A stretch of DNA of 37,865 nucleotides from a virus, in the IMG/VR virus record IMGVR_UViG_3300030419_005373, positions 1-37,865 of that record; one strand, given 5' to 3'. The translations under genes were made by a program, and so were the position numbers. The number at the start of each line of letters is the position of its first letter. The stretch's first letter is position 1. Shown in pieces: positions 9,741 to 22,559 of this stretch. The notes under the pieces are model-generated. The model did no database searches and was not told the DNA's origin. It saw nothing but the letters and a program-made list of their open reading frames with translations.

Positions 9741-10021
9741 CACACAGCACCTCCTGTACAGGCCAATTCGATACCGACAGGTCGGACTAGATTGATGATA
9801 GGCTGCGCGTGCATTGGGTCATCCGGTTCTCCGTGTGGTATAAACCGTGCCATTTCTCTAAATTCTGAGAGGGAATTACACCGAGGGTCGGACTCGTCCC
9901 GCCAAACACGCCAAATGTAATTGACAAGGGCTTCGGGGGAAACCGAGATACAGACGAAATGAACGACAACGCTAGCGCTAGGACAGTTATGCGGTCCTGT
10001 ACATGGGCATTCTCCGTTCAT
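9740..10021 (-). CDS. Hypothetical protein (93 residues)
   Basis: I start at the ATG at 10021 (MNGECPCTGPHNCPSASVVV), preceded by GAGGATTGGTGATT, rather than at the TTG three codons earlier. The N-terminal CPCTGPHNC might hold a metal; the middle is hydrophobic with aromatic residues. It is the first gene of the P5 cassette. No family is recognised. Confidence 0.7.
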   Translation of the reverse strand: MNGECPCTGPHNCPSASVVVHFVCISVSPEALVNYIWRVWRDESDPRCNSLSEFREMARFIPHGEPDDPMHAQPIINLVRPVGIELACTGGAV

Positions 10022-10042
10022 AATCACCAATCCTCTTTCTAC

Positions 10043-10084
10043 CTATTAAACCTTACGAATCTATGATTTATTTAATTTGTAACC
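10043..10084 (-). promoter_or_regulatory. Promoter module P5 with imperfect palindrome
   Basis: On the minus strand GGTTACAAATTAAATAAATC precedes ATAGATTCGT and then AAGGTTTAATAGG. The palindrome is degraded (ATAGATTCGT) but the GGTTACAA element and both A/T blocks are intact. The second block starts about 31 bases before the ATG at 10021. Confidence 0.7.
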
Positions 10085-10103
10085 TCTGTCATTTTTGAAA
10101 AAA

Positions 10104-10361
10104 TCATCGCACCTTTGAAAAATCTACACCAGAAATCCAAGAGGTGAACATATCTCGGATGCGTCGCCTCAGTAGCGGTTTCGCATTTTTAGTGTGGAAT
10201 TCTACGAAGGGTTGCCAAGAACCTCTTTCTTTCGTCTCCCAAAGAGTACGCGCAGGAACCCACTTCCAAACAATCATTTGGAGGTGGATTTCTGTTGGTG
10301 GAGGACCTGCACTTTTTGGTCGGCGAGTTTTTACGGGCTTAGGGGGTCTTCCATCAATCAT
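10104..10361 (-). CDS. Basic hypothetical protein (85 residues)
   Basis: The N-terminus is basic and Pro-rich (RPPKPVKTRRPKSAGPPP), followed by a Trp-rich compact part (IVWKWVPARTLWETKERGSW) and more arginines (LLRRRIRDMF). GAGGGGG precedes the ATG at 10361. It looks like a nucleic-acid-binding protein by charge alone. No family is recognised. It is the last gene before P5. Confidence 0.7.
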   Translation of the reverse strand: MIDGRPPKPVKTRRPKSAGPPPTEIHLQMIVWKWVPARTLWETKERGSWQPFVEFHTKNAKPLLRRRIRDMFTSWISGVDFSKVR

Positions 10362-10668
10362 ACAAATCCCCCTCGTCGTCTAAGACCCCGTACCAATACT
10401 CATACGGGTTTTTATTTCTCTCGCGGATTTCTCTGACGCAATCGGTCAGCGTCTCGCGGCTCACACCCATTAATACTGACCCGTTACTCCCAATGAAATT
10501 AACCAGCGTCCACATTTTCGGACGGCGATTTCGTAGCCCGGTAAAGATGTCTGCATCGGGGACAGTCGGAATAATTTGAATGGTGATTTTTTTAGCACTT
10601 AGGTTATTCAATTCATTACAATTGAAGAAATGGACGATACCATTTTCTGCTGCTCTTTTTTCAGTCAA
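10354..10668 (-). CDS. Hypothetical protein (104 residues, TTG start)
   Basis: The frame is open further upstream to 10812, but that part overlaps the better-supported Cys-rich gene at 10661-10819. I therefore start at the TTG at 10668, which has GGTGAG four bases ahead and overlaps the TGA of that gene. The protein then begins (M)[16 protein letters not shown] and has alternating hydrophobics and an acidic C-terminus (LDDEGDLYD). No family is recognised. The start is moderately sure. Confidence 0.6.
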   Translation of the reverse strand: MTEKRAAENGIVHFFNCNELNNLSAKKITIQIIPTVPDADIFTGLRNRRPKMWTLVNFIGSNGSVLMGVSRETLTDCVREIRERNKNPYEYWYGVLDDEGDLYD

Positions 10669-10819
10669 GGTACTCACCGCCTTCGTCTGAAAGTGCTTCT
10701 TCGCAATCTTTAGAACAAATTCGGGGGCCGAATTCATACACCCCGTTCGCGTCTGTGTGTACATCTCCACAACAGTACGCGCACCGTCCGTCGCGCTCAA
10801 ATTGTTCTTCAAGCCCCAC
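10661..10819 (-). CDS. Cys-rich mini-protein, GTG start (52 residues)
   Basis: Reading from the GTG at 10819 gives (M)[16 protein letters not shown], then [12 protein letters not shown], so CxxCC plus C-x3-C, the same layout as the finger at 5577-5780. GGGGAGGG lies eight bases upstream and the gene overlaps the DUF2958 gene by 11 bases. A longer reading in another frame covers the same bases, but its N-terminal part has no ribosome site and no recognisable motif. A single zinc site is likely. Confidence 0.7.
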
Positions 10820-11180
10820 GGTAAATTCCCTCCCCGATTAAATGCTTACGAATGTCTCTGAATCGGCATTCTCTGAATGATGTGTCGCGCTCTATTGGAA
10901 GCCCTTTGTAATTAACTGATAGAAATTCTTCCATTGAAAAGTAACCCCATTCACCGTAGGTGCCGTCCACGAATCCGAAGAATGTCTGCCGCTCGGGGTC
11001 CCATTCAGTCGCGTACCAAGTCCATGAGGACCACGGATGGAAATACTTGGCGACGATTATGACTCCGTCAGGAAATCTATCTTCGATTTCCTTAGCCTCA
11101 TCCGTTGCTCGCCAATCTTGGGACCCAATTTCGGCAAAGCGACGCTCAAGTGCTTTGGTCATTAATTTCGCTTGTGGCAT
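10809..11180 (-). CDS. DUF2958 family protein
   Basis: The 123-residue protein shows the family's hallmarks in order: [17 protein letters not shown] near the start, then [29 protein letters not shown] and [13 protein letters not shown]2958 proteins are common on plasmids, integrative elements and phages; the function is unknown to me. Length is typical. AGGAGTAAC before the ATG at 11180 is a clear ribosome site. It is the first confident gene after the P6 module, from which it is separated by a 540-base leader, an unusual distance on this strand. Confidence 0.9.
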
Positions 11181-11717
11181 TTTTGTTACTCCTGTGGTTT
11201 CCGGCGGCTCCCGTGACAGAAGAAGCGGGTGATGAATGAAAAAACCCGTCGCCTTTTCCCTTTTTTACAGCCAAACGGTGTGTCCGTTAATCTCCCTAGG
11301 ATATTGGGTATTGGGGCGAAATCACGAGAAACCGTTTCCGGCTCCTTGTGAGACAGCAGGGTCCACGCTTGATTGCAGCCGTGCGTGCAGCGCTACTCGG
11401 CAACCGAGAGTAAGCGCCCGTGATTTGGATAGGGGTTACCAAATATCCCAAACTTTCTGTTCCCGCATCTGTTAAAACGGTATGACCGCCAAAGAAGAAG
11501 TCGTTCTCAACGACAGCCAAAGAAGAAGTTGCCACTCTCTTCCTCAGTTGCCGTTGTTTTCAAATCTCAGTCAGTTAACACGACCCAATCCGCAGGGATG
11601 GCGTAGCAACCCCGCGGCAAGAGTTGGCTACCATCCACCAGCGAATGATTCGCAATGATTCTCCACCAATGGTATAATGGCCTTCTCTTTCTGCCTCAAA
11701 TATCCATATGCATACTA
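11181..11717 (-). promoter_or_regulatory. Long structured 5' leader of the DUF2958 operon
   Basis: About 540 bases separate promoter P6 from the first confident gene. The segment holds a strong hairpin (11596-11636), short repeats such as CGAATGATT next to CGCAATGATTC (11642-11661), and two copies of ACTTCTTCTTTGGC-like sequence near 11495-11530. A 79-codon frame (11296-11535, GTG start, with GAGGAAGAGA ahead) exists but its protein looks unlike the neighbours; I do not annotate it. The first 50 bases resemble the leader behind P8. It could be a regulatory leader or a structured RNA gene. Confidence 0.5.
11596..11636 (-). other. Strong hairpin in the leader
   Basis: GGATGG pairs with CCATCC, and the inner TAGC and AAC pair with GCTA and GTT, giving about 13 pairs with two small bulges and a GC-rich loop of about 11 bases. 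There is no T-run after it on either strand, so it is not a simple intrinsic terminator. Confidence 0.65.
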
Positions 11718-11760
11718 GTATTTAAACCTTACGAATTCATGATTTATTAAAATTGTAACC
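11718..11760 (-). promoter_or_regulatory. Promoter module P6
   Basis: On the minus strand GGTTACAATTTTAATAAATC is followed by ATGAATTCGTAAGG and TTTAAATAC. All elements are present: GGTTACAA, AATAAATC, near-perfect palindrome (one change) and second A/T block. It points into the long leader and the DUF2958 operon. Confidence 0.75.
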
Positions 11761-11826
11761 TTATCCACGGGTTTAATAGAGACGCCTCTCTCTCTTACGC
11801 GGGGAAACAAGTGGCGCGGCATCCCC

Positions 11827-11874
11827 GGTGCGTAGGGTCATCAAGACTAAGGCTCATCAACAACAGGCCGCACC
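11827..11874 (-). ncRNA. Candidate antisense element: hairpin loop matching the DUF932 3' end
   Basis: Bases 11832-11860 are the exact reverse complement of 13187-13215, which lies in the last codons of the DUF932 gene. Flanking GGTGCG (11827-11832) and CGCACC (11869-11874) can pair to form a six-pair stem whose loop displays nearly the whole match. A minus-strand transcript running on from the P7 cassette would be complementary to DUF932 mRNA. The repeat and possible stem are seen directly; an RNA with antisense activity is inference. Confidence 0.4.
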
Positions 11875-11892
11875 AAAAGTTCTACCGCAGAA

Positions 11893-11997
11893 TTAGTAGT
11901 CGCAGGTAGGGCAGATATAGGAAGAAATCAGGTCCGGGTTTCCTATGGTTCCCTGACCGCAGCGGCGGCATGGAAGGGACGAAAATCTATGAGTCAT
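11893..11997 (-). CDS. 34-residue zinc-ribbon-like protein
   Basis: From the ATG at 11997, directly behind TAGGAGAAAAA, the frame reads MTHRFSSLPCRRCGQGTIGN and ends YICPTCDY. CRRC and CPTC form a minimal zinc ribbon of only 34 residues. A longer reading upstream (to 12093) would overlap the Cys-rich gene at 11987-12172 and has no ribosome site. It is the last gene of the P7 cassette. Confidence 0.7.
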   Translation of the reverse strand: MTHRFSSLPCRRCGQGTIGNPDLISSYICPTCDY

Positions 11998-12172
11998 TTT
12001 TTCTCCTATAACACCGTACATGCCTACCCAAAAACTCCCGATACTCTTTATCCCCGCATCGAGATAATCTCTCTTTGATTTTTTTGCATCCACAAGCGGG
12101 ACAGCCTTTGCGTAGGTGATGATTGATATAGCCCGTCCTGAAATGGCCGCATTCCCATAATACTAAACCCAA
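11987..12172 (-). CDS. Cys-rich mini-protein, TTG start (61 residues)
   Basis: The protein reads (M)GLVLWECGHFRTGYINHHL, then KGCPACGCKKIKERLSRCGD, with a Cys/His layout 'C-G-H ... C-x-x-C-x-C' that suggests one zinc site followed by a basic helix. The TTG at 12172 has TAGGTGGT five bases ahead. It overlaps the next gene by 11 bases. A role in nucleic acid binding is plausible from the basic tail (GRHVRCYRRKN). Confidence 0.65.
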   Translation of the reverse strand: MGLVLWECGHFRTGYINHHLRKGCPACGCKKIKERLSRCGDKEYREFLGRHVRCYRRKNDS

Positions 12173-12183
12173 ATTTCTACCAC

Positions 12184-12372
12184 CTAATTTACGCCATCAA
12201 GGAAATGATACTCATTAAGCCATCCACACACAAGACACATATCCCTTCTATGCTTTGCGCCTCTATGGTAAAACCATTCTGATATACAGTCAGGTTGGCC
12301 GTGTTTAGGATGGGGTTCGCAGTTAGGGCACTTGACTATGACCGTCGCATCGCATCGGCTATCTTCCTTCAT
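12184..12372 (-). CDS. Zinc-ribbon-like mini-protein
   Basis: The 62-residue protein has VKCPNCEPHPKHGQPDC and MCLVCGWLNEYHF, so two CxxC pairs with additional histidines. GAGGT upstream and overlap with the previous stop (ATGA) support the ATG at 12372. No family is recognised beyond the zinc-ribbon pattern. Confidence 0.75.
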   Translation of the reverse strand: MKEDSRCDATVIVKCPNCEPHPKHGQPDCISEWFYHRGAKHRRDMCLVCGWLNEYHFLDGVN

Positions 12373-12554
12373 ATCCAGTACCTCGCGCCCTGATTGTATT
12401 CAATCGAGCGTGGGCGTATAGGGGGACTCAATATCTCTCTGATTTCAGCCATCATTTTTTCAGCGTCATCAGATAGATTTTTTCCACTTTGGAATTCTAT
12501 GCATGAGTCACATATCGCTAGGTCCTGACAGTAGCATTCACTATTTTGTGTCAT
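12369..12554 (-). CDS. Small Cys-rich protein, first gene of the P7 cassette
   Basis: The 61-residue protein begins MTQNSECYCQDLAICDSC, giving CxC and CxxC pairs, followed by a helical acidic part and RPRSIEYNQGARYWI. There is no clear ribosome site before the ATG at 12554, and the second A/T block of P7 lies about 28 bases ahead, so the messenger may be leaderless or nearly so. Function is unknown. Confidence 0.7.
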   Translation of the reverse strand: MTQNSECYCQDLAICDSCIEFQSGKNLSDDAEKMMAEIREILSPPIRPRSIEYNQGARYWI

Positions 12555-12576
12555 AGCCAGCCAACAATGAGGTAGT

Positions 12577-12617
12577 AATTAAACCTTGCGAATTCGTGAT
12601 TTATTAAAATTGTAACT
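12577..12617 (-). promoter_or_regulatory. Promoter module P7
   Basis: On the minus strand GTTACAATTTTAATAAATC precedes ACGAATTCGC and AAGGTTTAATTAC. The palindrome has one change. This module starts the rightmost cassette of the left arm. Confidence 0.75.
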
Positions 12618-12899
12618 CTGCATTTCTTTGGCTCTCTTTTCTGTCTCTTTTTTCTGTCTCTTTTTTTCTAGCGCTGATTTTTTTCGGGCTCACACGCAGC
12701 CGCGGTGCCCGGTTACAATTTTGTAACCGCGGTCTCTCGGGCTCGCGCTCGGATTTTTTCTAGCGCTGATTTTTTCTGAGGTTACAATTTTTTCTAGGTC
12801 TAGATTGCAAGGTTACAATTTTTGAATTAAAAAAAGCCCCGCAGAATTTCTACGGGGCGAGGTTACAATTTTCGGTTACAATTTCCCGACAGGTTACAA
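12618..12899. repeat. Left iteron region: GGTTACAA copies, pyrimidine tract and 22-bp repeat pair
   Basis: GGTTACAA occurs at 12711, 12780, 12811, 12861, 12874 and 12892, all in this orientation; 12861 and 12874 are 13 bases apart. The copy at 12711 is half of GGTTACAATTTTGTAACC, an inverted pair with 8-bp arms. A long pyrimidine tract spans about 12,626-12,668. The 22-base sequence TTTTTTCTAGCGCTGATTTT plus TT occurs at 12662-12683 and 12754-12775 and shares its TTCTAGCGCTG core with the 23-bp repeats at 6804 and 9633. Confidence 0.85.
12829..12858 (-). terminator. Intrinsic terminator behind DUF932
   Basis: On the minus strand GCCCCGTAGAA pairs with TTCTGCGGGGC (one G-T pair), followed at once by seven T. 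It lies about 300 bases after the DUF932 stop and would end that transcript before it runs into P7. Nothing coding is seen between 12,900 and 13,162. Confidence 0.85.
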
Positions 12900-13162
12900 A
12901 AAAAGGTGGGGGTCGAGGGGGCTCACCGTGTCGGCTTTTCCCCGGGCGAATTCCCGGGCACCCCCCCGACCTTATGTAATCCGCTCGTCACGGTTGCTCA
13001 TGCCACTCTTTCGTAATGTACGGGCCTCGTCATTATCCTACGCGACCCGAATTTATTGCTTCGCGTGGTGCGGTCTGGTGGTCATTCAATGGTGCTTCTG
13101 CAACCCCATGCTGACCACGGCGTCTAGTGAAAAACGCCTGTCAAAAACATGTGAGCATACCT

Positions 13163-14341
13163 CTAAAGGTACATCTCAACTAGTAATTGATGAGCCTTAG
13201 TCTTGATGACCCTACCATCACGGAAGGCTGCTGACTCGTCGCGCTTGATGTTCGCCTTGCCAGCATTCTTCCCCGTACGGATGAGACGCTTCTCATGGTC
13301 CACATACTCGGTGAGAACATTCAGGGCCTGATATGCAGTACCCTTCATTTCACCGACAGTATTTGTGGCACGCTTCTTCATCGAATTCAATTCTTTGAGG
13401 GTGCGTGCAGAAGCGGATACCAACTTTCCGGCTTTCGGGTGCCTGACCTTTCTACCTTTCTCGTTGATTTCCCAATCCGGGTGGTAAGTGAGTTTCAATG
13501 CCTGTATGAAGAATTCGTCCATCTCTTTTTTCGTCATCTTGGTGACTACCAACTCGTTCATTTGCTCGCCCAATTTCTTGTGCCAGTCAATGCCCATTTG
13601 GAGCGCCTCTCTCGCGTCATCTACGCGATTAGCCGCCTGACTAGTGTGACGAATGTTGAAGATTTCATTCTCAGCGCGTGCGCCACCTAGAGCCATGCTC
13701 AAGGTGTTTTGGCAGACCACGCGCACGGAAGTTGGCATGACCTTGATTGCTCCGGTACCGTCGTGAGTATTGGTGAGTAGAATGTACAACTGACTTGTAT
13801 CCTTTTCTCCCACAGTAATTTCGTGGGGGACCTTCATCAGCATCCATACTTTCTCTCCGTTCCCGAGGGCACCCGCGCACTCAAAGTTTGCCTCTTGGCT
13901 CTGAACCAGTTCGTCTAGGAACGCGAACGCATCGTGATTTTGGAAGGGTGTGTACACCTTCCCGACGGCCTTTCCACGCGTAAGCGCTTTAATATTACCG
14001 CCGTTTTTGTCCTCACGATATGTTACGAAGGTCGTCTCTAGTCCGGGTATCTCTTGGTAGCCCTCGATTACTGGGTTCATAACTCCAGTCTCGGGGTCTG
14101 TCTTCCGCCTGATGTTCCCGGTTGGCGTCCTTGCAAAGATAGGGGCTTCCGCCTTTACCTCTGTCGTTCTAACAATCCAGTCAAGATTTGCTGCCTCCAT
14201 ACATTCTTGCGAAGTCATCAGTCCGTCCACAACTTGACCGAGGCGATGCCACGGTGTTATGCCATTTCCTGATGCCATCTCATAGACTCCATCTGCATTC
14301 ACAGATATTCCATGCATAGTTTTCAGTTTCTCCTTTTCCAT
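13163..14341 (-). CDS. DUF932 family protein (phage/plasmid-like, TIGR03299 type)
   Basis: This 392-residue protein has the family's N-terminal signature (GITPWHRLGQVVDG, about 26-39), a YTPFQNHDAFAFLD segment (about 129-142), and the central MPTSVRVVCQNTLSMAL (about 200-216) typical of DUF932. Such proteins are common in phages and plasmids, function unsettled. Two starts are possible: the ATG at 14341 without ribosome site, or the ATG at 14317 (MHGISVNADG) with AAGGAG 12 bases ahead. The gene stands alone between two iteron regions of opposite orientation and behind a 330-base leader, which hints at a link with replication or its control. Its last codons are copied in inverted orientation at 11832-11860. 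Confidence 0.9.
   Translation of the reverse strand: MEKEKLKTMHGISVNADGVYEMASGNGITPWHRLGQVVDGLMTSQECMEAANLDWIVRTTEVKAEAPIFARTPTGNIRRKTDPETGVMNPVIEGYQEIPGLETTFVTYREDKNGGNIKALTRGKAVGKVYTPFQNHDAFAFLDELVQSQEANFECAGALGNGEKVWMLMKVPHEITVGEKDTSQLYILLTNTHDGTGAIKVMPTSVRVVCQNTLSMALGGARAENEIFNIRHTSQAANRVDDAREALQMGIDWHKKLGEQMNELVVTKMTKKEMDEFFIQALKLTYHPDWEINEKGRKVRHPKAGKLVSASARTLKELNSMKKRATNTVGEMKGTAYQALNVLTEYVDHEKRLIRTGKNAGKANIKRDESAAFRDGRVIKTKAHQLLVEMYL
13187..13215. repeat. 29-bp inverted repeat arm inside the DUF932 3' end
   Basis: The exact reverse complement of 11832-11860. In the gene it encodes part of RVIKTKAHQL. The match ends abruptly on both sides. Confidence 0.9.
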
Positions 14342-14668
14342 GTCGGGTGACTGGGCTTCATTCTGAGGGTGCGTCTCACCGTGACGGCTTGACGCTGGCC
14401 CCCTCCCGAAATATCGCTCTCATAATTCTCAATCCCCGGGCCGAGGGAGTCCTCGTCCGAAGACGGCTCCCCCGGTTCCCTAAGAATCTGCACGCAATCC
14501 TGTCGGTGATTTCTCATTGCCGATGCCTTTTCTCCGTGCCGGAATTCAAGCAGTATTTTTCCCAGTCGGTTGTGTTACTGCTTTGGACTCGCGGGTCGGT
14601 ATCGCAGGAGAGATGAGGGCTTATTAGTCCCGTCTTTTTCGCTCTCAGATATTCATATAAATAATACT
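14342..14668 (-). promoter_or_regulatory. Long 5' leader of the DUF932 gene
   Basis: About 330 bases lie between P8 and the DUF932 start. The first 50 resemble the P6 leader. A compact hairpin with a TTCG tetraloop (CGTC-TTCG-GACG on the minus strand, inside an outer GGGAG/CTCCC stem) spans 14443-14472. A 64-codon frame (14323-14517) beginning MRNHRQDCVQ exists with only a weak ribosome site; I do not call it. The leader is GC-richer than the intergenic DNA around it. Confidence 0.5.
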
Positions 14669-14709
14669 ATTTAAACCTTACGAATTCGTGATTTAATAAA
14701 ATTGTAACC
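14669..14709 (-). promoter_or_regulatory. Promoter module P8
   Basis: On the minus strand GGTTACAATTTTATTAAATC is followed by the perfect palindrome ACGAATTCGT (14680-14689) and AAGGTTTAAATAG. It is the most complete copy and directs transcription into the DUF932 leader. Confidence 0.8.
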
Positions 14710-14979
14710 TCTATCTAATAAACCCCACGATAGAATTACTGTAATGCGCCCCCGCGTGAGCCTGTGTGATTTTCGCCCCTCTTAGAGAATGTATTGCGTC
14801 TGCGTCACGCGCTCGCGTGAGAGAGGGTCTGCTTTTTGTAACCTTTGATACTAGGTGTAGTAGAAAACACCTAGTAAATTTTTGTAACCCTGCCCCACCA
14901 CCCGCCCTGCCCCCTTTTTTTCCTGTGCCCTGTTTTTCTGTTTCAGAATTATTTACAGTAGAAACTGGAACCGAGTTTG

Positions 14980-15006
14980 GGTTCGTGACTTAATAAAATT
15001 GTAACC
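14980..15006 (-). promoter_or_regulatory. Promoter-module relic P9
   Basis: On the minus strand GGTTACAATTTTATTAAGTC is followed by ACGAAC, then the match fades. There is no gene directly downstream, so this may be a decayed copy or only a protein-binding site. Confidence 0.45.
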
Positions 15007-15556
15007 TGATATTTGCCCCAGCGAATTTATTGTAACCTCTTTAGGCCCCCCCAAAAATCGGTGGTCAAAATTGTAACCCAAAATTGTAACCGTGTGTGTG
15101 GGTGAGTAACAGTTACATTTTTGTAACCTCTGAGGGTTACATTTTTGTAACTTCAAAATCGCTGTACTGCGCCCCTGCTTAGATTTTTTGTAACCTGTGC
15201 TGAATCGGTTCCGAACCCACCCACTAAATTCGGTAAATCGCCCATGAAGTTACAATTTTAGGGCAGTAAAGCGGTTTTTATTGTAACCTCAACTAGTTGA
15301 TATCAGAATTGGGTCGGTTACAATTTTGTAACTTCTAAAGGTTACAATTTTGTGACTTCAAAACCGTTGTACTGCGAGCCTGTTCTGAAAAATTGTAACC
15401 TGTGTGCCATCAGTACCGTGAGGCCCCTGAGTCGAGCGGACAGCGGAAATGAAGTTACAATATGGGCGCAGTACCCCGAAAAAAATTGTAACCTCAAAGT
15501 TAACTGGCTCCCCGGTGTATGATTTCCGGCGCCGGGGGTTGAATATCGGAGTATGA

Positions 15557-15599
15557 CTATATCAACCTGACGAAATCATGACTTAAAAAAATTGTAACC
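15557..15599 (-). promoter_or_regulatory. Promoter-module copy P10
   Basis: On the minus strand GGTTACAATTTTTTTAAGTC is followed by ATGATTTCGTCAGGTTGATA, a recognisable but altered copy with both A/T blocks. No minus-strand gene follows. Confidence 0.45.
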
Positions 15600-15608
15600 C
15601 CCAATACT

Positions 15609-15632
15609 TCGTGACTTAATAAAATTGTAACC
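15609..15632 (-). promoter_or_regulatory. Promoter-module relic P11
   Basis: GGTTACAATTTTATTAAGTC then ACGAAG on the minus strand, the shortest copy, with no second A/T block. It sits directly upstream of P10. Confidence 0.4.
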
Positions 15633-15688
15633 TCAGAGTCACAATAATTAGTTACAAAATTGTAACCTACGATAGTACCCCGAAACAT

Positions 15689-15739
15689 GGTTACAATAAA
15701 TAATAAATCATGAATAGTGTTCCTTCATATAGTATAGAC
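15689..15739 (+). promoter_or_regulatory. Promoter module P12 (plus strand)
   Basis: The only module seen on the plus strand: GGTTACAATAAATAATAAAT, then CATGAATAGTGT in place of the palindrome, then a CATATAGTATAG block about 28 bases before the ATG at 15754. It would drive the 34- and 120-residue genes. Confidence 0.65.
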
Positions 15740-15753
15740 AATAGGCTAGAGAC

Positions 15754-15858
15754 ATGGAACCAAGCCCACACGCGGTAACCAACAGCACGCAAATGAATGA
15801 CCACTACACTAACTACGGAGCAACAGTAGGTAACTGGAAATACTACACGGGAGCGTGA
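15754..15858 (+). CDS. 34-residue hypothetical protein
   Basis: The frame reads MEPSPHAVTNSTQMNDHYTN and ends WKYYTGA. It begins at the expected distance behind P12 and ends four bases before the ATG of the 120-residue gene, whose ribosome site overlaps its last codons. These positions are the main evidence; there is no strong ribosome site. It may be a leader peptide or a small protein. No function can be given. Confidence 0.5.
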   Translation: MEPSPHAVTNSTQMNDHYTNYGATVGNWKYYTGA

Positions 15859-15862
15859 AACG

Positions 15863-16225
15863 ATGTTGAAACAACTACTATTGAATAGAGGCCGAAGACT
15901 ACTATTGAAAATACTGATTGGATATCGGGATTGGAAGGGACGACGACTAGAGAGAGAAGTAGTCATTGCCGAGACTAGATTGTGGAAGCACAGAATGAAG
16001 TATGAATACACCCCGTTCGCGGATTGGCCGATGGGTCCTGCTGGACTTAATATCCCCGTACGATGCAGCAACAGATTGCTTCCCGAAGCACTTCCGGAAG
16101 AGGCTGCTGTGAACAGTATTAATACTGTCCCGTTCAGCGACGCGATAGGCATCGTGACAGATAAGTATCATCCTATAATGACAAGGTTCACCAATGGCTC
16201 AACATTGAAGGAGGATAAGGAGTAA
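15863..16225 (+). CDS. Basic hypothetical protein (120 residues)
   Basis: The N-terminal third is very basic and helical (LLLNRGRRLLLKILIGYRDW, KGRRLEREV); the rest is mixed with several prolines. GGGAGCGTGA precedes the ATG at 15863. The charge and its place in the middle of the iteron region make it one candidate for the protein that binds the repeats, but I recognise no DNA-binding motif. A hairpin and pyrimidine tract follow as probable terminator. Confidence 0.65.
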   Translation: MLKQLLLNRGRRLLLKILIGYRDWKGRRLEREVVIAETRLWKHRMKYEYTPFADWPMGPAGLNIPVRCSNRLLPEALPEEAAVNSINTVPFSDAIGIVTDKYHPIMTRFTNGSTLKEDKE

Positions 16226-16233
16226 AACTCAAC

Positions 16234-16320
16234 GGGGGGCGTCCTAATCGTGGGACGAAGGGGCGCCTCCCCATTTGCTCTCTCTTTTGCTCTTTCTCTC
16301 TTTTTTCGCCTCTTTTTTCA
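16234..16320 (+). terminator. Probable terminator: branched hairpin plus pyrimidine tract
   Basis: GGGGGGCG pairs with CGCCTCCCC (one bulge), enclosing a small GTCC/GGAC hairpin, from 16234 to 16272. A long T/C-rich tract follows to about 16,319, with runs of six T. It ends the P12 operon. Confidence 0.6.
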
Positions 16321-16328
16321 CACCGATT

Positions 16329-16375
16329 TTGTAACCCAAAATTGTAACCGGAAATTGTAACCAAAAATTGTAACC
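16329..16375 (+). repeat. Four tandem 13-bp iterons
   Basis: TTGTAACC starts at 16329, 16342, 16355 and 16368, exactly 13 bases apart, with A-rich spacers (for example CAAAA, GGAAA). This is the cleanest iteron block of the window. Confidence 0.9.
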
Positions 16376-16496
16376 TCCGGGTTAGTGCAGAAAATGCACC
16401 GATTCCGTAAAACTAGGTTCAAACCTAGAAATCGCAAACCGGAAATCAGAAGTTGAAAATTGATATATCATTACCGGAAACCGGAAATCAGGCTGC

Positions 16497-16853
16497 ACAG
16501 GCTCGCAGTACCCCGAAAATAATTGTAACCTGAAATCGCTCCGAGCGGAAAGTGCCCGTACGCGCTGGAATCGCACATTCCAAATCATCGAATTATTGCG
16601 AATTACAAAATCAAAACCGTTGTACTGCTCCCTATATAGAAAATGAAATCGTTGTACTGCTCGTCCGCTCGTCAAAAAGTGTCCCAATTTTGCACATTTC
16701 CCGGAAGAAACTCAAAAATTTCCGGAATTCGGAACCGTTGTACTGAAAGCCTGTCAATAGTCAAAACCGTTGTACTGAAAGCCTGTCAGTTGAAAATATG
16801 GCTCGCAGTACCTCGATTCAAAATCGCAACAGGCTCGCAGTACCCCGATTTAG
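16497..16853. repeat. Repeat B cluster (seven copies)
   Basis: Copies of ACAGGCTCGCAGTACCCCGA or its reverse AAACCGTTGTACTG lie at about 16497 (plus), 16613, 16645, 16731 and 16763 (minus), 16799 and 16830 (plus). The block 16731-16853 therefore holds two minus copies followed by two plus copies. The first is followed directly by TTGTAACC (16523). No gene is supported between 16,376 and 16,895; the DNA is otherwise A/T-rich with GGAAATC/CCGGAAACCGG short repeats near 16,440-16,490. Confidence 0.85.
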
Positions 16854-16895
16854 TGAATCGTTGGGTTGATAAGCAAAACCGCTCCACTCAGGCGC

Positions 16896-18272
16896 ATGGA
16901 ATCGTCCCACGATGACATTAATGGAAGTCCGACCATATCGGACATGCTGGAGCGCATGACTCAGAATCATGCAGAGGCTGCTCTAGCAGTATTGAACGAC
17001 AACCGCCCACGCGGTGCCCAAGTGGTGCCTGTGGATGAGGTAGAGAACCTGACACCGATGATGATAGCCTTCTTCGGACTGGTTCAAACTATGCTCGGAG
17101 CATACACACTACCGCAATTGAAAGTGCTAGGACGCCGATTGAGGAAGATGGGATTCAGGTCGGTTAGGATATCAGGCAAGAAGGCCGAGATTGTCGCCAG
17201 TATCAGGAAAACGATTCACGGTCAGAATGCAACCTTCGGATTTACCGACGCTACGCATCCACCTATGCCGCTGGAAGTCCTGAGAGTTCACGGACACTAT
17301 GGAACACTTGGTGAGACTGTCGGTGCCCGAGTCATCATTACCGATGCAGACGGCAACCGTAGGATTCACTTCAACCAAGAAATCATTCAGCAAGATGGAT
17401 TGACACCCTCTGCGATTGATTCCCGAAACTGGGTCAATACTGGATACGACGCCGTCCACATGGTGGAGTCAGGTTCAATCAGAACCAAGAGAGGCGTCAT
17501 GAAGGTCGGTGACCGATTCACCTGTGACAAAAATGCTGACTTCTATGCAGGACTGTCGAAACTCCCCGGCTGTACTACTCGTACCGGGATTCCTTCATTC
17601 GTCAAGGGTGACGGAACCGAGAGAGGCCGCGGAGGACATATCGAATCCGGCGTTTGCCCTACCTGCCACGGACCAGCAAAGACACTAGAGCAGAGACACG
17701 GAGTATCTACGCTAAACGCTCAGTTTGCTCACGCCATCGTCATTCGACCTGATGGCACTATCCCAACTAGCCGATGGATTGTTCCGAAGACCGGACAGGC
17801 TGACGCTCTACGACCTCAGAGAATCCGAGTCAAGGATACAACCCGACACGGACCGCGCAGAGTTACCGCTCAGATTGAGTCCGAAGGTGGCCGAGCATGG
17901 GAATGGGAACAAGTCGAAGTCACAGAATGGATAGGCCCGAGAATATCACCTATCCACTTGCAGAAGCGCGGCGGCAGATATGCTCAGAAGATTAACGGAC
18001 GCACCGTTTGGCTGTCCGGGTCATTTGTCCGCGGCGAGTATCCCATAGAGACCGGCGGAACTGTACTAGTGTGGTTCTTCGTCTGCAATGCTAACCCATC
18101 AGACAGAACCCGATATGAAGACTACAATCCGGCACAACCGAGCCGAGCGGTTCAGGCTGTGCTAGAGGTAGCCAAGACGCAACCAGTCAAGAACAACAAC
18201 AGCGCCAATGAGAACCTGTCAGAATACCTGTCAGGACTCAACGCCGCTAGGATTGGCGGAGGTGGGCTTTGA
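16896..18272 (+). CDS. SAP-like domain protein (458 residues)
   Basis: I start at the ATG at 16896 (MESSHDDINGSPTISDMLER). Around residues 80-115 the segment YTLPQLKVLGRRLRKMGF followed by SGKKAEIVASIRK has the 'helix, G-x-x-x-x-G-x-K-x-E-L/I-x-x-x-I' layout of SAP DNA-binding domains. Later there is a CPTCHG motif (about 260) and a basic C-terminal half with WI/WLSG strands. I do not recognise the rest. There is no good ribosome site before the ATG. Lying next to the repeat clusters and followed by a Cys-rich gene, it is my first candidate for a repeat-binding or replication-related protein; that is inference. The gene is clearly GC-richer than the virion genes. Confidence 0.8.
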   Translation: MESSHDDINGSPTISDMLERMTQNHAEAALAVLNDNRPRGAQVVPVDEVENLTPMMIAFFGLVQTMLGAYTLPQLKVLGRRLRKMGFRSVRISGKKAEIVASIRKTIHGQNATFGFTDATHPPMPLEVLRVHGHYGTLGETVGARVIITDADGNRRIHFNQEIIQQDGLTPSAIDSRNWVNTGYDAVHMVESGSIRTKRGVMKVGDRFTCDKNADFYAGLSKLPGCTTRTGIPSFVKGDGTERGRGGHIESGVCPTCHGPAKTLEQRHGVSTLNAQFAHAIVIRPDGTIPTSRWIVPKTGQADALRPQRIRVKDTTRHGPRRVTAQIESEGGRAWEWEQVEVTEWIGPRISPIHLQKRGGRYAQKINGRTVWLSGSFVRGEYPIETGGTVLVWFFVCNANPSDRTRYEDYNPAQPSRAVQAVLEVAKTQPVKNNNSANENLSEYLSGLNAARIGGGGL

Positions 18273-18766
18273 TGCTCACCTTCGCCACCATCCTTTGCGC
18301 CATCGCCCTACTTGCTAGGACTGACAAATTCGGACGCAGGAAATCCAGCCGAGGCAGAGGCCGACCTCAGAAGGTCCGCCGCTGTGGATGCCCAACCCGA
18401 CAGCACCGCGCAGACTGTCACCATGCCTTCACGACTGGCAAGACACACACCATCCTTGACGCAGAGAGGGAGAGACTTGAGGCCGAGGCAAAAGCGGCAG
18501 CAGTAGCAGAGCGAAACCGCCTAGCCCGGGCCGCTCATATTGCCTCGCTGAATCTAGGTCCGTGGGTACCTCTGCATGTGGCTCAGTTGAGATTCCGAGA
18601 CATCGGCATTCAGCATATCTCACAGACCTGCATCATCTGCACCGAGCCTACCCGATATGCGGTCAGCCTCAGAGACCTGAGCCGCATTGATGAGTTGGTG
18701 CCGCTACTACCTCGGGTAGTGTGTGCCAGTTGCTCAACTGACATTGTCTCCGAGCATTCAGACTAG
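18272..18766 (+). CDS. N-terminally hydrophobic, Cys-rich protein (164 residues)
   Basis: The protein begins MLTFATILCAIALLARTDKF, a likely signal anchor, followed by an Arg-rich stretch (RRKSSRGRGRPQKVRRCGC), a CGCPTRQHRADCHH cluster, an alanine-rich helix and a second Cys pair set (CIIC, CASC). The ATG overlaps the TGA of the SAP-like gene (TGATG) with GGAGGTG ahead, so the two are coupled. The mix of membrane anchor, basic arm and two possible zinc sites is unusual. No family is recognised. Confidence 0.75.
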   Translation: MLTFATILCAIALLARTDKFGRRKSSRGRGRPQKVRRCGCPTRQHRADCHHAFTTGKTHTILDAERERLEAEAKAAAVAERNRLARAAHIASLNLGPWVPLHVAQLRFRDIGIQHISQTCIICTEPTRYAVSLRDLSRIDELVPLLPRVVCASCSTDIVSEHSD

Positions 18767-19298: not shown

Positions 19299-19607
19299 TT
19301 AGTCCTCAGTCATTACCCCCGATGGCTCCGCAAACTTCCATTTTGTTTTACCACCGACGGTTTGTTTCTGTAAGCCGTATTCTTCTTCGTAACGGCGCAT
19401 AAACGCCCCGGCTACACGGGCACTTACAGGAGTCCAAAATGAAGAAATGTCGCCGCTCAATTTAGGGGCTATTTCTTTCGATGTTCTCCATTCATTAAAG
19501 AATTCAGTTTTGAGTAATTCTTCTAAGTGTTCTTGGATAATGTACTTCCTTTTCTTGGGTCCATGTCTTCTAACCAAAGGATTTTGGCGATTAAACTTCT
19601 TCTTCAA
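19299..19607 (-). CDS. Basic hypothetical protein, possibly winged helix (102 residues, TTG start)
   Basis: The N-terminus is basic (KKKFNRQNPLVRRHGPKKRK), then a helical part (EHLEELLKTEFFNEWRTSKE) and WTPVSARVAGAFMRRYEEEY, ending in a beta-hairpin-like GKTKWKF. The 'helices, then GxTKWKF' ending resembles winged-helix regulators. The TTG at 19607 has GGAGGG seven bases ahead and overlaps the terminase stop. Lying directly after the terminase it could be a small packaging protein or a late regulator; I cannot decide. Confidence 0.7.
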   Translation of the reverse strand: MKKKFNRQNPLVRRHGPKKRKYIIQEHLEELLKTEFFNEWRTSKEIAPKLSGDISSFWTPVSARVAGAFMRRYEEEYGLQKQTVGGKTKWKFAEPSGVMTED

Positions 19608-21115
19608 TCAAAACCCCTCCTAGAAATTGCTTTGCCACCTAAACCCCGTGGTTTTCTAGAAAGACCGCGAGACCCACCGGACCATTCGCCCTTTTCGGCA
19701 CTTTTCATCACGACGGGATAATCAGGAGTTTTATGTTGAAATTGGTCCATAGCATGTGCTAAAGCCATCACACAATCGTTATGTCTTCCCAAATCTTCAA
19801 TCAACCCCTCTTTCCAAGCATGAGACTCCAATTCTTCAAGAATCAGATTTACCATGTTACGAGTTTCATGGTCACCATAGGGAAACATTACTAACTCTCT
19901 TTCAAACCATACACGAAGTCTATTTAACAACCCTTGCTTTAGCGTTCTATTACTTACCTTAGATTCACGATAGTCAATTACCCCGCCCTTCTGTTGTAGC
20001 AAAGTTTCATACATTTGTTGAAAACCTACTGACTCAACAGCAAACGCAGGAGTACCATAAAGAGTATTCCATTCTAAAATCATATCAGCCTGTCTATCGG
20101 GGGGAAAATCATTACGCCTCCACATATTAACAAAGTGAATATAACCATCTGAGTCCTGTCGTAGAACAATCATAACAGAAAAGTCTTGTCCTACACCATG
20201 CGCGGGGTCAAAGCCTATTGAATACTTAGATTCATGAAATTTCTCCTTTTCAATGGAAGCATCCATATCCAAATTTTTACGAGTAAGATTTCGGGGATAA
20301 ACGGCGGCTTCATCATCAACTACTCTACATAGATACTCCTGTACAAATGATAATTCACCCATAGCGGTCTTTTGTTCAAGAAGGAATGATGCAGGTCTAA
20401 ATTCAGGCCATAACTCTTTAAGTTCAATAGATGGGTCAGCCTTATAATCGTCCCAATTCAAAAAAGCAGACCATGTACCCGATTTCCAAGTCTCATTCTC
20501 TAACATTTCCGTATGGTACAAATCTAGCATACTCATTGGAGTACCAATAACATAAATTGAAGTACCGGGACTCAACATAGGTGTAATTTTCTTTCGGAAC
20601 CATTCAGCGATATTTTTCATATTCATTTCGCCTAAATCATCGAGTACATCGTCAAAAGCGATACAAGCAGGATGCTCACCACGAATAGCAGCCCCAACAC
20701 TAGTTGCACGAATCCAAGCACCATTAGTAAATCGTAATTCTAACTTATTACCACGCTTAGGGTCAAGATATCTAGATAATTCAGGATGGCGCTTCATATC
20801 TTCTCTAATTTCTTCAAGACGGCGAGCAGCCAAGTCCTTACTCGCTGAGAACAACCAACAAGTAAAGGGTTTATCACGCCACTTATCAAAAAGAGCATGA
20901 TGAAGTAATTTGACTCTTAGTGTAGTAGATTTACTGTGGTCACGGGGAGCAATAACACAAACTCGATGAACCTGCACATCACCTCGGGCTCCATACATCT
21001 CCATCCATTCACCAATATGGTCACCCCAAGTATAACCAAGCCAACGATAAAAATAGGAAACATCGGTACGAGACCTTTCCATTGAAAGATTGACATTAAG
21101 AGACAGACTAACCAC
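19604..21115 (-). CDS. terL: Terminase large subunit
   Basis: The 503-residue protein is the packaging motor. ATPase motifs in order: Walker A-like APRDHSKST (about 56-64), Walker B CIAFDDVLDD (about 151-160), and a coupling motif VIGTPMS (about 190-196). The RNase H-like nuclease follows: GFDPAHGVGQDFS (about 302-314), AVESVGFQ (about 360) and a final RHNDCVMALAHA (about 458). Terminase cuts concatemeric DNA and drives it through the portal into the prohead. The length is typical. The start is a GTG at 21115 overlapping the gene ahead by eight bases; an ATG at 21082 is an alternative. The gene lies on the opposite strand from the portal, which is less common than co-directional order. Confidence 0.95.
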   Translation of the reverse strand: MVSLSLNVNLSMERSRTDVSYFYRWLGYTWGDHIGEWMEMYGARGDVQVHRVCVIAPRDHSKSTTLRVKLLHHALFDKWRDKPFTCWLFSASKDLAARRLEEIREDMKRHPELSRYLDPKRGNKLELRFTNGAWIRATSVGAAIRGEHPACIAFDDVLDDLGEMNMKNIAEWFRKKITPMLSPGTSIYVIGTPMSMLDLYHTEMLENETWKSGTWSAFLNWDDYKADPSIELKELWPEFRPASFLLEQKTAMGELSFVQEYLCRVVDDEAAVYPRNLTRKNLDMDASIEKEKFHESKYSIGFDPAHGVGQDFSVMIVLRQDSDGYIHFVNMWRRNDFPPDRQADMILEWNTLYGTPAFAVESVGFQQMYETLLQQKGGVIDYRESKVSNRTLKQGLLNRLRVWFERELVMFPYGDHETRNMVNLILEELESHAWKEGLIEDLGRHNDCVMALAHAMDQFQHKTPDYPVVMKSAEKGEWSGGSRGLSRKPRGLGGKAISRRGFD

Positions 21116-22559
21116 CCTTAATTACTGGTGCATATAGACTTCCTATTACCCCTTCTTGTTTATCTACCAAGAAAGCAAAAATCCCCGGGCGATTTGTGAA
21201 TGCGTGTTTATGATGATAACGGTCATGACCCGATAAGGAAGGTAATTGAATAACAAAACAACCACCAGTTTCTATCATATGCGTATGGTGCTTATGACCA
21301 CTAAACCACATCTTATTCTGACAAGAGCCCCATTCATGTTGTTTTTCATTAGCCATCACTACTGGTAAGTCTGTACCTTTAACAAAATCACCATGAGTAA
21401 AACCTAGTAGATTATTACCCCATGTTACATACTGTCGTACCTTCGGAGAAACGCTTACATCAACATCTTCACAGTTTTCATATACGGCCTCAAGGTATAT
21501 AGCCAAAGCCAATGCACTATACCTATCATGGTTACCATTCATGAAAACAATTTCAATTGGAGCAATACCTCTAAGCATTTCAATATGCTCCCGCGCTAAC
21601 TTACAGCCACCCATTAAAATTTGTGCAGGGGAACCCGCCATATCTTGTGGTGTACCTTTAGTAGTAGTACCGTGGTCATTATCAACATGGAACCAATCAG
21701 AACCCGTCGCTACAATAATTCTTTCAGGTCTAGAAGGTAATCTAGATATTAGAGCCTCAGTCTTTTCGATTAGACGATTTCGTGCTTCATCAAACCCGTA
21801 CTGTTCACCAGTTTCAAACTCCCAACCATATTTACCATAATGAAGGTCAGTCGGAGAAATTACTAGTGCGTATGGGTCTCCTTCTTTCATTTCGACATGT
21901 TTTGCTTCGTGACTTAAATCACTTTGAGCAACAATCTCTTTGAATTCAGAAAGTAAATAGGAATCCATTTCACGGAATTGTTTTGCCTCTTTCTGAGTCA
22001 TAACCCAATCTTGCTTTTGAGCATCTACTGCTATTTTCCGTCTTCGTTCAAATAATAATAACTCAGTCAGAGACTCAGTATCATTTTCAAGGACTTCTTC
22101 GTCAGTAAAGGGGTCCATTTTATGACTCCATCCATGAGCCCGAATGTATTGCCTTATCCACGAAGAAGGAATTTCAAATTTAAGAGCCATTTCATCAGCG
22201 GTCATCCCACCGGAAGTATCAGAATACGCACGACGCATATTTCTATGCATCTCACCATCAATCTTCAAAAGGTCATTTATTGTATCAATCCATGTCAAAT
22301 ACACATCTTCGCCTTTATCATAGTAAATTTTCATTCTAGAGATATCAGCAGTTATAGAATCCTCAGAAAATTCCACGCGCTCTATATGGAAAGTATTTCC
22401 CTTATTCACCCATCTTTGAATTGCTACTCTCCATGCCTGAACACTACGCGCAGGTTCAACTTCATGTAAATATCTAGCAAACTCCGAGTAATTACCAAAA
22501 CCTTTCTTTGCGTGCTTCTCGATTAAGTCAGTCCCCCCGACAAACCTTCTCTCTACCAT
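21108..22559 (-). CDS. HTH plus calcineurin-like metallophosphoesterase
   Basis: The 483-residue protein carries all metal-binding blocks of calcineurin-type phosphoesterases: SPTDLHYGK (about 222-230), ATGSDWFHVDND (about 273-284), MNGNHDRYSA (about 339), FTHGD (about 393) and SGHKHHTHM (about 423). Its N-terminal third contains a helix-turn-helix-like segment (ADEMALKFEIPSSWIRQYIR, about 118-137) of the kind used by small terminase subunits. The gene directly precedes and overlaps the large terminase. A combined DNA-recognition and DNA- or nucleotide-hydrolysing role in packaging or end processing is plausible. No ribosome site precedes the ATG at 22559. Confidence 0.88.
   Translation of the reverse strand: MVERRFVGGTDLIEKHAKKGFGNYSEFARYLHEVEPARSVQAWRVAIQRWVNKGNTFHIERVEFSEDSITADISRMKIYYDKGEDVYLTWIDTINDLLKIDGEMHRNMRRAYSDTSGGMTADEMALKFEIPSSWIRQYIRAHGWSHKMDPFTDEEVLENDTESLTELLLFERRRKIAVDAQKQDWVMTQKEAKQFREMDSYLLSEFKEIVAQSDLSHEAKHVEMKEGDPYALVISPTDLHYGKYGWEFETGEQYGFDEARNRLIEKTEALISRLPSRPERIIVATGSDWFHVDNDHGTTTKGTPQDMAGSPAQILMGGCKLAREHIEMLRGIAPIEIVFMNGNHDRYSALALAIYLEAVYENCEDVDVSVSPKVRQYVTWGNNLLGFTHGDFVKGTDLPVVMANEKQHEWGSCQNKMWFSGHKHHTHMIETGGCFVIQLPSLSGHDRYHHKHAFTNRPGIFAFLVDKQEGVIGSLYAPVIKGG

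Follow-up and report, generated by a model that had tools for sequence, protein, structure and literature searches.

A candidate regulatory module in the window

The repeat array in the window (the whole 37,865-base stretch of viral DNA analysed here) and the gene at 16866-18272 probably form one module, in which a fast-evolving viral DNA-binding protein with its own recognition sites would serve as an early-promoter switch. What the sequences themselves document is the array, its position in relatives, the association between gene and array, the divergence of the repeated word, the swapping of cassettes and the spacing at promoters.

The 8-mer TTGTAACC/GGTTACAA is the commonest of the contig, with 32 exact copies, 30 of which lie at 12711-16530, in agreement with the roughly thirty given in the preliminary description; dinucleotide-preserving shuffles of 12556-16865 (n = 500) yielded 0.18 copies on average and never more than 2, placing the observed number far above chance. 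The range first proposed (12607-16530) holds the bulk of the copies but misses two exact ones, at 10077 and 11753, both in promoter-like surroundings. The left array (12711-12899) contains 8-mers at 12711, 12721, 12780, 12811, 12861, 12874 and 12892, six of them GGTTACAA and one TTGTAACC, while the main array (14702-15696) contains 18 exact copies (15 TTGTAACC, 3 GGTTACAA) together with one-base variants and palindromic pairs. Further along the + strand are four TTGTAACC copies at 16329-16375 and a final TTGTAACC copy at 16523-16530, after which come repeats of a second family and the gene for the candidate reader. The array is interrupted by a gene on the - strand encoding a DUF932 protein (13163-14341; PF06067, E 1.7e-53). 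Copies to the right of this gene are mostly TTGTAACC as described (20 vs 3 GGTTACAA), but those to the left, said to be uniformly GGTTACAA, include one TTGTAACC copy at 12721. Inverted fused pairs are present, as reported, at 12711/12721 and 15316/15326. Steps of exactly 13 bases separate the copies at 16329, 16342, 16355 and 16368, and the pairs 15071/15084 and 12861/12874 keep the same spacing; however, 13 bp is the spacing of tightly packed copies only and not a general register, as the median spacing is 41. Closely packed copies in relatives are spaced at 12, 14, 16 or 18. The second repeat family (GTTGTACTGCGAGCCTG / CGCAGTACCCCGA) is interleaved with the 8-mer array at 15366-16850, with nine copies (GTTGTACTG / CGCAGTACC), the last four immediately upstream of the candidate gene. 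A scan of 9900-17000 against Rfam matched no RNA family.

Promoter-linked sites

The region holds promoters of archaeal type. Seven copies of the 8-mer (10077, 11753, 12610 with one mismatch, 14702, 14999, 15592 and 15625) share an extended context, which in its fullest form reads GGTTACAATTTTAATAAATCACGAATTCGTAAGGTTTAAATA and is partial at 14999 and 15625. All the promoter-like features described here point leftward (- strand). One promoter (10021-10084) has GGTTACAA at 10084-10077, a TATA-like TTTAATA 34 bp on and an ATG at 10021, and a leaderless promoter (12554-12617) has AGTTACAA at 12617-12610, followed by TTTAATTA and an ATG at 12554 that opens a 61-aa gene (12369-12554). Promoter-like repeats with TTTAAATA 34 bp on were found at 11717-11760 (site 11753-11760) and, upstream of the DUF932 gene, at 14666-14709 (site 14702-14709); two more copies of this context, less complete, lie within 15556-15632 (sites 15592 and 15625).

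Across the viruses compared, 22 of the 73 leaderless TATA promoters of the region, two of them in the window (12610 and 10077), have the virus's own word 58-66 bp ahead of the ATG, as against 0 of 576 tests with unrelated words at that spacing; the loci used to test this rule were those from which it was derived. The arrangement is that of an archaeal promoter with an upstream element, with a TATA box about 26-30 bp before the leaderless start and the element at a fixed distance upstream of it. A promoter link is visible for no more than a few per cent of the sites, and several relatives with large arrays (L156, L014, L050 and L011) have no site at the 58-66 bp spacing. It is a transcriptional role that the sequence supports directly, since a subset of the 8-mer copies precede the TATA box of a leaderless gene by a constant distance. 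In one group of relatives, GTATATAA 'arrays' that were initially counted proved to be TATA boxes before small genes, read on the opposite strand.

Arrays and adjacent genes in relatives

Relatives were defined as IMG/VR records sharing the large terminase subunit, encoded in the window at 19604-21115 (- strand). IMG/VR contains 369 relatives, and 60 had enough sequence for comparison. We classed 42 of the 60 as array-bearing: at the corresponding position they repeat a 7-10-mer about 8-84 times, and the repeated word is not the same from one virus to another. L128, with 9 copies of ACACCTAG, and L147/L149, with 8 of CTAGTATA, were placed in the array-less class. Downstream of the terminase gene, the top 8-mer of the 60 relatives reached up to 84 copies (shuffle maxima, 3-10), while the virion genes upstream contain no array (top 8-mer, at most 8). 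The arrays are thus neither matched in density in the virion genes nor absent from close relatives, either of which would have told against the preliminary description, and its multi-copy sites in one noncoding locus do look like those of a dedicated protein. In long relatives, isolated copies of the word are few and mostly within genes. Searching for the exact 13-bp tandem pattern retrieved no other contig, which fits the changed words of the relatives, and the DUF932 protein as IMG/VR bait found no relatives.

A gene of 250-470 codons is located between terminase and array, or at the array edge, in all but one array-bearing relative, and the 18 array-less relatives have none. Counting related viruses as independent, and with the array classes set after the data were seen, the association (gene and array, 41; array only, 1; gene only, 0; neither, 18) gave a Fisher p = 2e-14; where an ORF lay past 4.2 kb (conserved cluster 8 in L012, L013 and L035), it was excluded from the adjacent-gene count. 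The single exception, L084, has no such gene within its 3.4 kb, and L080 carries its gene in the midst of the array. Related genes pair with related words, for example F2/F8 with NCTACAAAT and F4, the family of the window gene, with GTTACAA/GTAACAAA; F4 proteins alone as query led to a new locus, L163, with an array of GGTAACAAAT.

These observations bear on another reading, an iteron-type replication origin, in which the adjacent protein would be a viral initiator that loads the virus-encoded replisome at the array and autoregulates a few promoters. Several direct repeats of one short word, 12-18 bp apart and with palindromic pairs, do lie in one noncoding locus beside a dedicated protein gene, and the relatives, which encode PolB, an RFC-like clamp loader and other replication proteins, may need an origin of their own; however, arrays that reach 84 sites in 6-8 kb greatly exceed the usual iteron arrays, and the viruses' own words occur at promoters with fixed spacing. 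Neither the window protein (Pfam, PHROG) nor the 26 adjacent proteins searched (Pfam) matched a replication-initiator family. AT skew reaches its minimum inside the array both in the window (15385) and in G014, but skew tracks the direction of genes in these viruses and carries little weight, and GC skew, whose minimum is near the terminase gene and not in the array, was judged uninformative as origin evidence. Several lineages include relatives with neither array nor gene that presumably still replicate; because 18 relatives lack the array, it is not an obligatory origin of the virus group, although a substitute could exist. Overall, we consider an origin unlikely, though the most plausible of the alternatives to the regulatory module.

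The candidate reader and its neighbours

The candidate array-binding protein of the window (16866-18272, + strand, TTG start, family F4) has 468 aa, with an N-terminus that by eye is SAP-like and helical, invariant cysteines C220/C236/C264/C267 and, in a low-confidence model, a beta-rich C-terminus. It matched no Pfam or PHROG family, including SAP (PF02037) and Rho_N; among the 26 adjacent proteins searched against Pfam, one matched SAP (E 2.8e-5) and one Rho_N (6.4e-4). HHalign comparisons between adjacent-gene families reached 62-88% for some pairs and gave nothing for F0, F4, F5, F7 and F9, so that not all families are provably homologous. AlphaFold models of two families were poor (pLDDT 42 and 45), and Foldseek with one of them retrieved nothing. 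A small Cys-containing protein encoded beside the candidate in F4 viruses (18269-18766, + strand; kin in L019, L023 and L033) is a possible cassette partner. The reader of the array is likely the SAP-like protein rather than the DUF932 protein, because the latter also occurs in relatives without arrays; cluster 8 was rejected as a reader on the same grounds.

Swapping of gene and word

In the terminase tree, near-identical terminases are accompanied by different pairs of gene and word. L046 and L056 match at 95% identity as far as 373 bp beyond the terminase gene and show no similarity after that, L059 and L137 match at 91% as far as 42 bp beyond it, and between L046 and L057 similarity disappears over the cassette and returns (69-91%) on its far side. 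Since near-identical terminases carry different pairs and similarity stops sharply just beyond the terminase stop codon, gene and word are swapped as a cassette. The same comparison bears on a packaging (pac) or partition (centromere) site, both of which typically have short-repeat arrays, with the array here lying near the terminase gene. The terminase and the small protein encoded next to it are unlikely readers because the word changes while both are near-identical (L046/L056), the ground on which packaging was rejected, and no ParA-like gene was found among the 50 proteins scanned from two long relatives; the reading as a whole is highly improbable.

Protein and site sequence diverge together in the relatives, as would also be expected of a superinfection-immunity repressor acting at numerous operators or stoperators, like that of the cluster A mycobacteriophages, in which case the word would be the immunity specificity. 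The sites here are short, asymmetric and multi-copy, have a predominant orientation and diverge along with the candidate protein, as has been described for stoperators (PMC6550527). Stoperators are genome-wide, however, whereas these sites are restricted to one region, with 30 of the 32 copies of the window inside 4 kb, and the promoter sites are upstream of the TATA box and not across it. As neither an integrase nor a ParA matched among the 50 proteins from the two long relatives (the left-arm genes of the window were partly scanned), lysogeny is not in evidence. We regard an immunity repressor as improbable, and a regulatory module remains our preferred reading.

Proposed working of the module

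In this module, we infer that the 16866-18272 protein would bind the 8-mer, and that a site about 33 bp upstream of the TATA box and about 62 bp upstream of a leaderless ATG, in the same orientation, would place early promoters under its control. Control would most likely be activation, because the site is upstream of BRE/TATA and not over it. The remaining sites, packed in a noncoding hub between packaging genes and early genes, would most likely provide a platform with an enhancer-like or titrating effect, making the early switch sharp and specific to its own genome. Specificity may diversify through joint swaps of protein and sites, as in the immunity regions of lambdoid phages.

Comparison with known systems

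Lambdoid immunity regions and O/ori modules exchange protein and sites as a cassette between otherwise near-identical viruses, like the viruses studied here, and the O/ori pairs lend the origin reading an analogy; unlike the window group, they have few sites, bacterial promoters and different protein families. EBNA1 combines replication, segregation and enhancer roles, and EBV oriP consists of dense tandem sites. Like plasmid iterons and oriP/EBNA1, the array offers dense tandem sites for one self-encoded, here candidate, protein, but with more copies, a word that varies from virus to virus and no detected protein relation. Two accounts of mycobacteriophage L5 and cluster A stoperators (PMC6550527; PMC9283540) describe many short, asymmetric, phage-specific sites, a dedicated immunity repressor, Rep, and co-diverging specificity. 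The window group resembles them in its many short, asymmetric, virus-specific sites and co-diverging candidate protein, and differs in that its sites are gathered at one noncoding locus next to the gene for the protein, some of them tied to archaeal-type TATA promoters at fixed spacing, with no lysogeny genes seen in the two relatives scanned.

Virus affinities and host

The host is probably archaeal. The PolB of one relative is nearest to those of haloarchaeal tailed viruses (23-26%), the major capsid protein had no relative in 50,697 phage records, and two scans of GTDB genomes found no contig with a related terminase or capsid and no host-linked relative. PolB, present in relatives, is also present in magroviruses (PMC5628999), and tailed-virus genes are shared with these and other Poseidoniales viruses (Magrovirales, Adrikavirales), a marine setting being assumed; the two magrovirus papers searched, that study included, make no mention of repeats or noncoding arrays.

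Significance

Viral genomes are usually compact, yet in members of this group kilobases of largely noncoding sequence are given over to repeats of a single word, and viruses that are otherwise almost identical have different words, the trace expected from strong diversifying selection on a regulator-site pair. Such diversification is known from temperate bacteriophages, and we did not find it described for archaeal viruses in the literature searched. It is conceivable, although we hold it only tentatively, that the module represents a new class, in which a rapidly diversifying SAP/zinc-ribbon-like protein and a dedicated hub of about 15-84 self-specific sites would control leaderless archaeal promoters and would be cassette-swapped to keep co-infecting relatives from reading one another's switch. 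The natural pairs of protein and site provide a ready set for reading out a DNA-recognition code, and they make an early-gene switch in uncultured marine viruses testable. Dozens of related viruses share the arrangement of word copies beside a likely reader gene, with different words and swapped cassettes, which suggests a rapidly diversifying viral gene switch; the swapping may be driven by competition inside co-infected cells, by host range or by the control of replication.

Repeat Words in the Window and in Related Viruses

The commonest 8-mer of the 37,865-base IMG/VR virus record is TTGTAACC/GGTTACAA, with 32 exact copies; 30 of these lie within 12711–16530, compared to a mean of 0.18 and never more than two in dinucleotide shuffles of 12556–16865, confirming the enrichment, and the other two lie outside this range (10077 and 11753). 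The 13-bp tandem, 13-bp pairs, and fused inverted pairs of the preliminary description all match what we found; however, the 13-bp spacing belongs to closely packed copies and is no register of the array as a whole, and copies left of the DUF932 gene (13163–14341) do not all share one orientation, as one of the seven exact copies there is TTGTAACC. A second repeat family, GTTGTACTG / CGCAGTACC, presented nine copies in both orientations (15366–16850), the last four immediately preceding the candidate gene (16866–18272); its longer core, CAGTACAACG, was found once in a relative (L019). A 29-bp perfect inverted repeat links noncoding DNA (11832–11860) with the 3′ end of the DUF932 gene (13187–13215); an old rearranged duplication is likely here because 11681–11761, close to this repeat, is 84% identical to 14630–14710. 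The structural-gene end of the contig encodes a 2009-aa collagen-like protein with long GPTGPT runs (31640–37669), and the terminase and an exonuclease-like gene (phrog_704; 19604–22559) lie in the opposite orientation to the portal, capsid, and tail genes.

IMG/VR yielded hundreds of relatives of the large terminase (19604–21115; 121 and 369 found); among 50,697 phage records, no terminase relative exceeded 60% identity and the major capsid protein had zero matches. Sixty records extend 2.5 kb or more beyond the terminase. The most frequent 8-mer there occurs up to 84 times (shuffle maxima, 3–10), compared to 3–8 copies for the top 8-mer of the preceding virion genes; many relatives carry arrays at the same place, and the virion genes do not share this density. 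The words vary among relatives (TGGTTACAAAA, CGTTACAAAAC, AAGTTACAAAT, GGTAACAAAT, AACCCTACAAAA, TGCCTACAAAA, AGACTACAAAA, CTACTACAAAT, TATCTACAAAT, ATGCTACAAA, CCTACGAAGT, ACGGCCAAAA, GGACAAAA, ACTACATAAC, and AATCCAAA), and most arrays start after the first 250–470-aa gene past the terminase. One long relative, possibly a complete genome (G005, loci L101–L104; 72,008 bp), holds 71 copies of GCTACAAA within its final 13 kb and has a terminal repeat of 119 bp.

The Adjacent Gene and Its Exchange Together with the Array

Array and adjacent gene occurred together in 41 of the 60 records, the gene alone in none, and neither in 18, a class that includes some records with 8–18 GTATATAA/CTAGTATA sites and one (L128) with nine copies of ACACCTAG; the one remaining record (L084) has an array and no adjacent gene within its 3.4 kb. 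This co-occurrence (Fisher p = 2e-14) is not corrected for kinship, its classes were assigned post hoc with the data already seen, and adjacent-gene status was confined to ORFs within 4.2 kb, which left out conserved cluster 8 in L012/L013. The GTATATAA sites were considered as an array and rejected; in the two best-sampled groups, L071 and L078, they are TTTATATAC TATA boxes read on the opposite strand, several preceding small genes, and are thus read as promoters, a reading that similarity would extend to the remaining GTATATAA records. In array-less members of this clade, the 8 kb beyond the terminase contain up to 28 TATA-type boxes, several of which closely precede an ATG, suggesting numerous small early genes, each served by its own leaderless promoter.

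The adjacent proteins form eleven families by BLAST; HHalign joined F1, F2, F3, F6, F8, and F10 (62–88% probability) and found no link for F0, F4, F5, F7, and F9. Most contain a zinc-ribbon-like cysteine set, while SAP and Rho_N were each matched in one of 26. The window protein (16866–18272) belongs to F4 and matched no Pfam family; its SAP-like start was judged by eye. A relative found using F4 proteins only (L163) has GGTAACAAAT as its array word, as does the F4 virus L033.

In the terminase tree, one shallow clade with near-identical terminases includes pairs with AACCCTACAAAA, TGCCTACAAAA, and AGACTACAAAA, and another includes GGACAAAA (F6) and GGGTTACAAAA (F1). Pairwise DNA comparison placed sharp limits at +373 past the terminase in L046/L056 (95% identity, then unalignable) and at +42 in L059/L137 (91%); L046/L057 are 92% identical to +332, lack similarity in gene and array, and regain partial similarity (69–91%) farther on, while L042/L046, which share a word, are 88–94% alike in stretches throughout the compared DNA. 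Gene and word are thus exchanged together as a cassette; because such pairs differ beside near-identical terminases, with sharp DNA limits, the terminase or its small neighbour is unlikely to read the word. Lambdoid immunity or O/ori cassettes are among the nearest known systems.

Promoters Carrying the Word

Beyond the terminase in 28 viruses with arrays, we listed 73 leaderless-type promoters (a TATA-like hexamer or heptamer 26–32 bp before an ATG opening at least 45 codons). The virus's own word lay on the same strand 58–66 bp before the ATG in 22 of them (12 records, five protein families), compared to 0–8 promoters in other 9-bp windows and none of 576 tests with unrelated words of other viruses at 58–66 bp; this spacing rule was found and counted on the same loci, orthologous promoters of close relatives included. 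Two such promoters are in the window (12617–12554 and 10084–10021, each with the word 62 bp before the ATG), and the same context recurs at 11753 and 14702 and, less completely, at 15592. Sites linked to a promoter at this spacing make up only a few per cent of the total.

Host and Possible Roles of the Array

TATA boxes with leaderless starts, the affinity of a relative's PolB (nearest to haloarchaeal tailed viruses, 23–26%), and the RFC-like clamp loader and Cpn60/TCP-1 chaperonin encoded by relatives point to an archaeal host. However, Shine-Dalgarno-like words are concentrated 9–16 bp ahead of gene starts in spaced genes (45 matches among 160 genes), and TATA-like words gave only weak peaks in the same genome-wide count, both counting against a simple archaeal picture. 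A marine Poseidoniales host is a guess; two scans of GTDB genomes found no host-linked contig. Our literature search, covering few subscription journals, found no description of such arrays in archaeal viruses (weak evidence of absence), and a word search of two magrovirus papers found no mention of repeats or noncoding arrays.

Since relatives encode PolB and the RFC-like clamp loader, a replication origin at the array is the main rival reading; relatives without arrays argue against it, and skew data do not decide. DUF932 and cluster 8 are both present in array-less relatives. Also among the nearest known systems are the stoperators of cluster A mycobacteriophages (PMC6550527); an immunity repressor with many sites is less likely here, as the sites are not dispersed and neither integrase nor ParA was found among 50 proteins of two long relatives (G005 and G021). 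From sequence, the array is best read as the site set of a candidate viral DNA-binding regulator, with part of the sites at early promoters and most in a noncoding hub. This regulator would act at promoters as an activator, a proposed sign favoured because the sites lie upstream of TATA, and the hub may serve as an enhancer, a titration buffer, or an origin.
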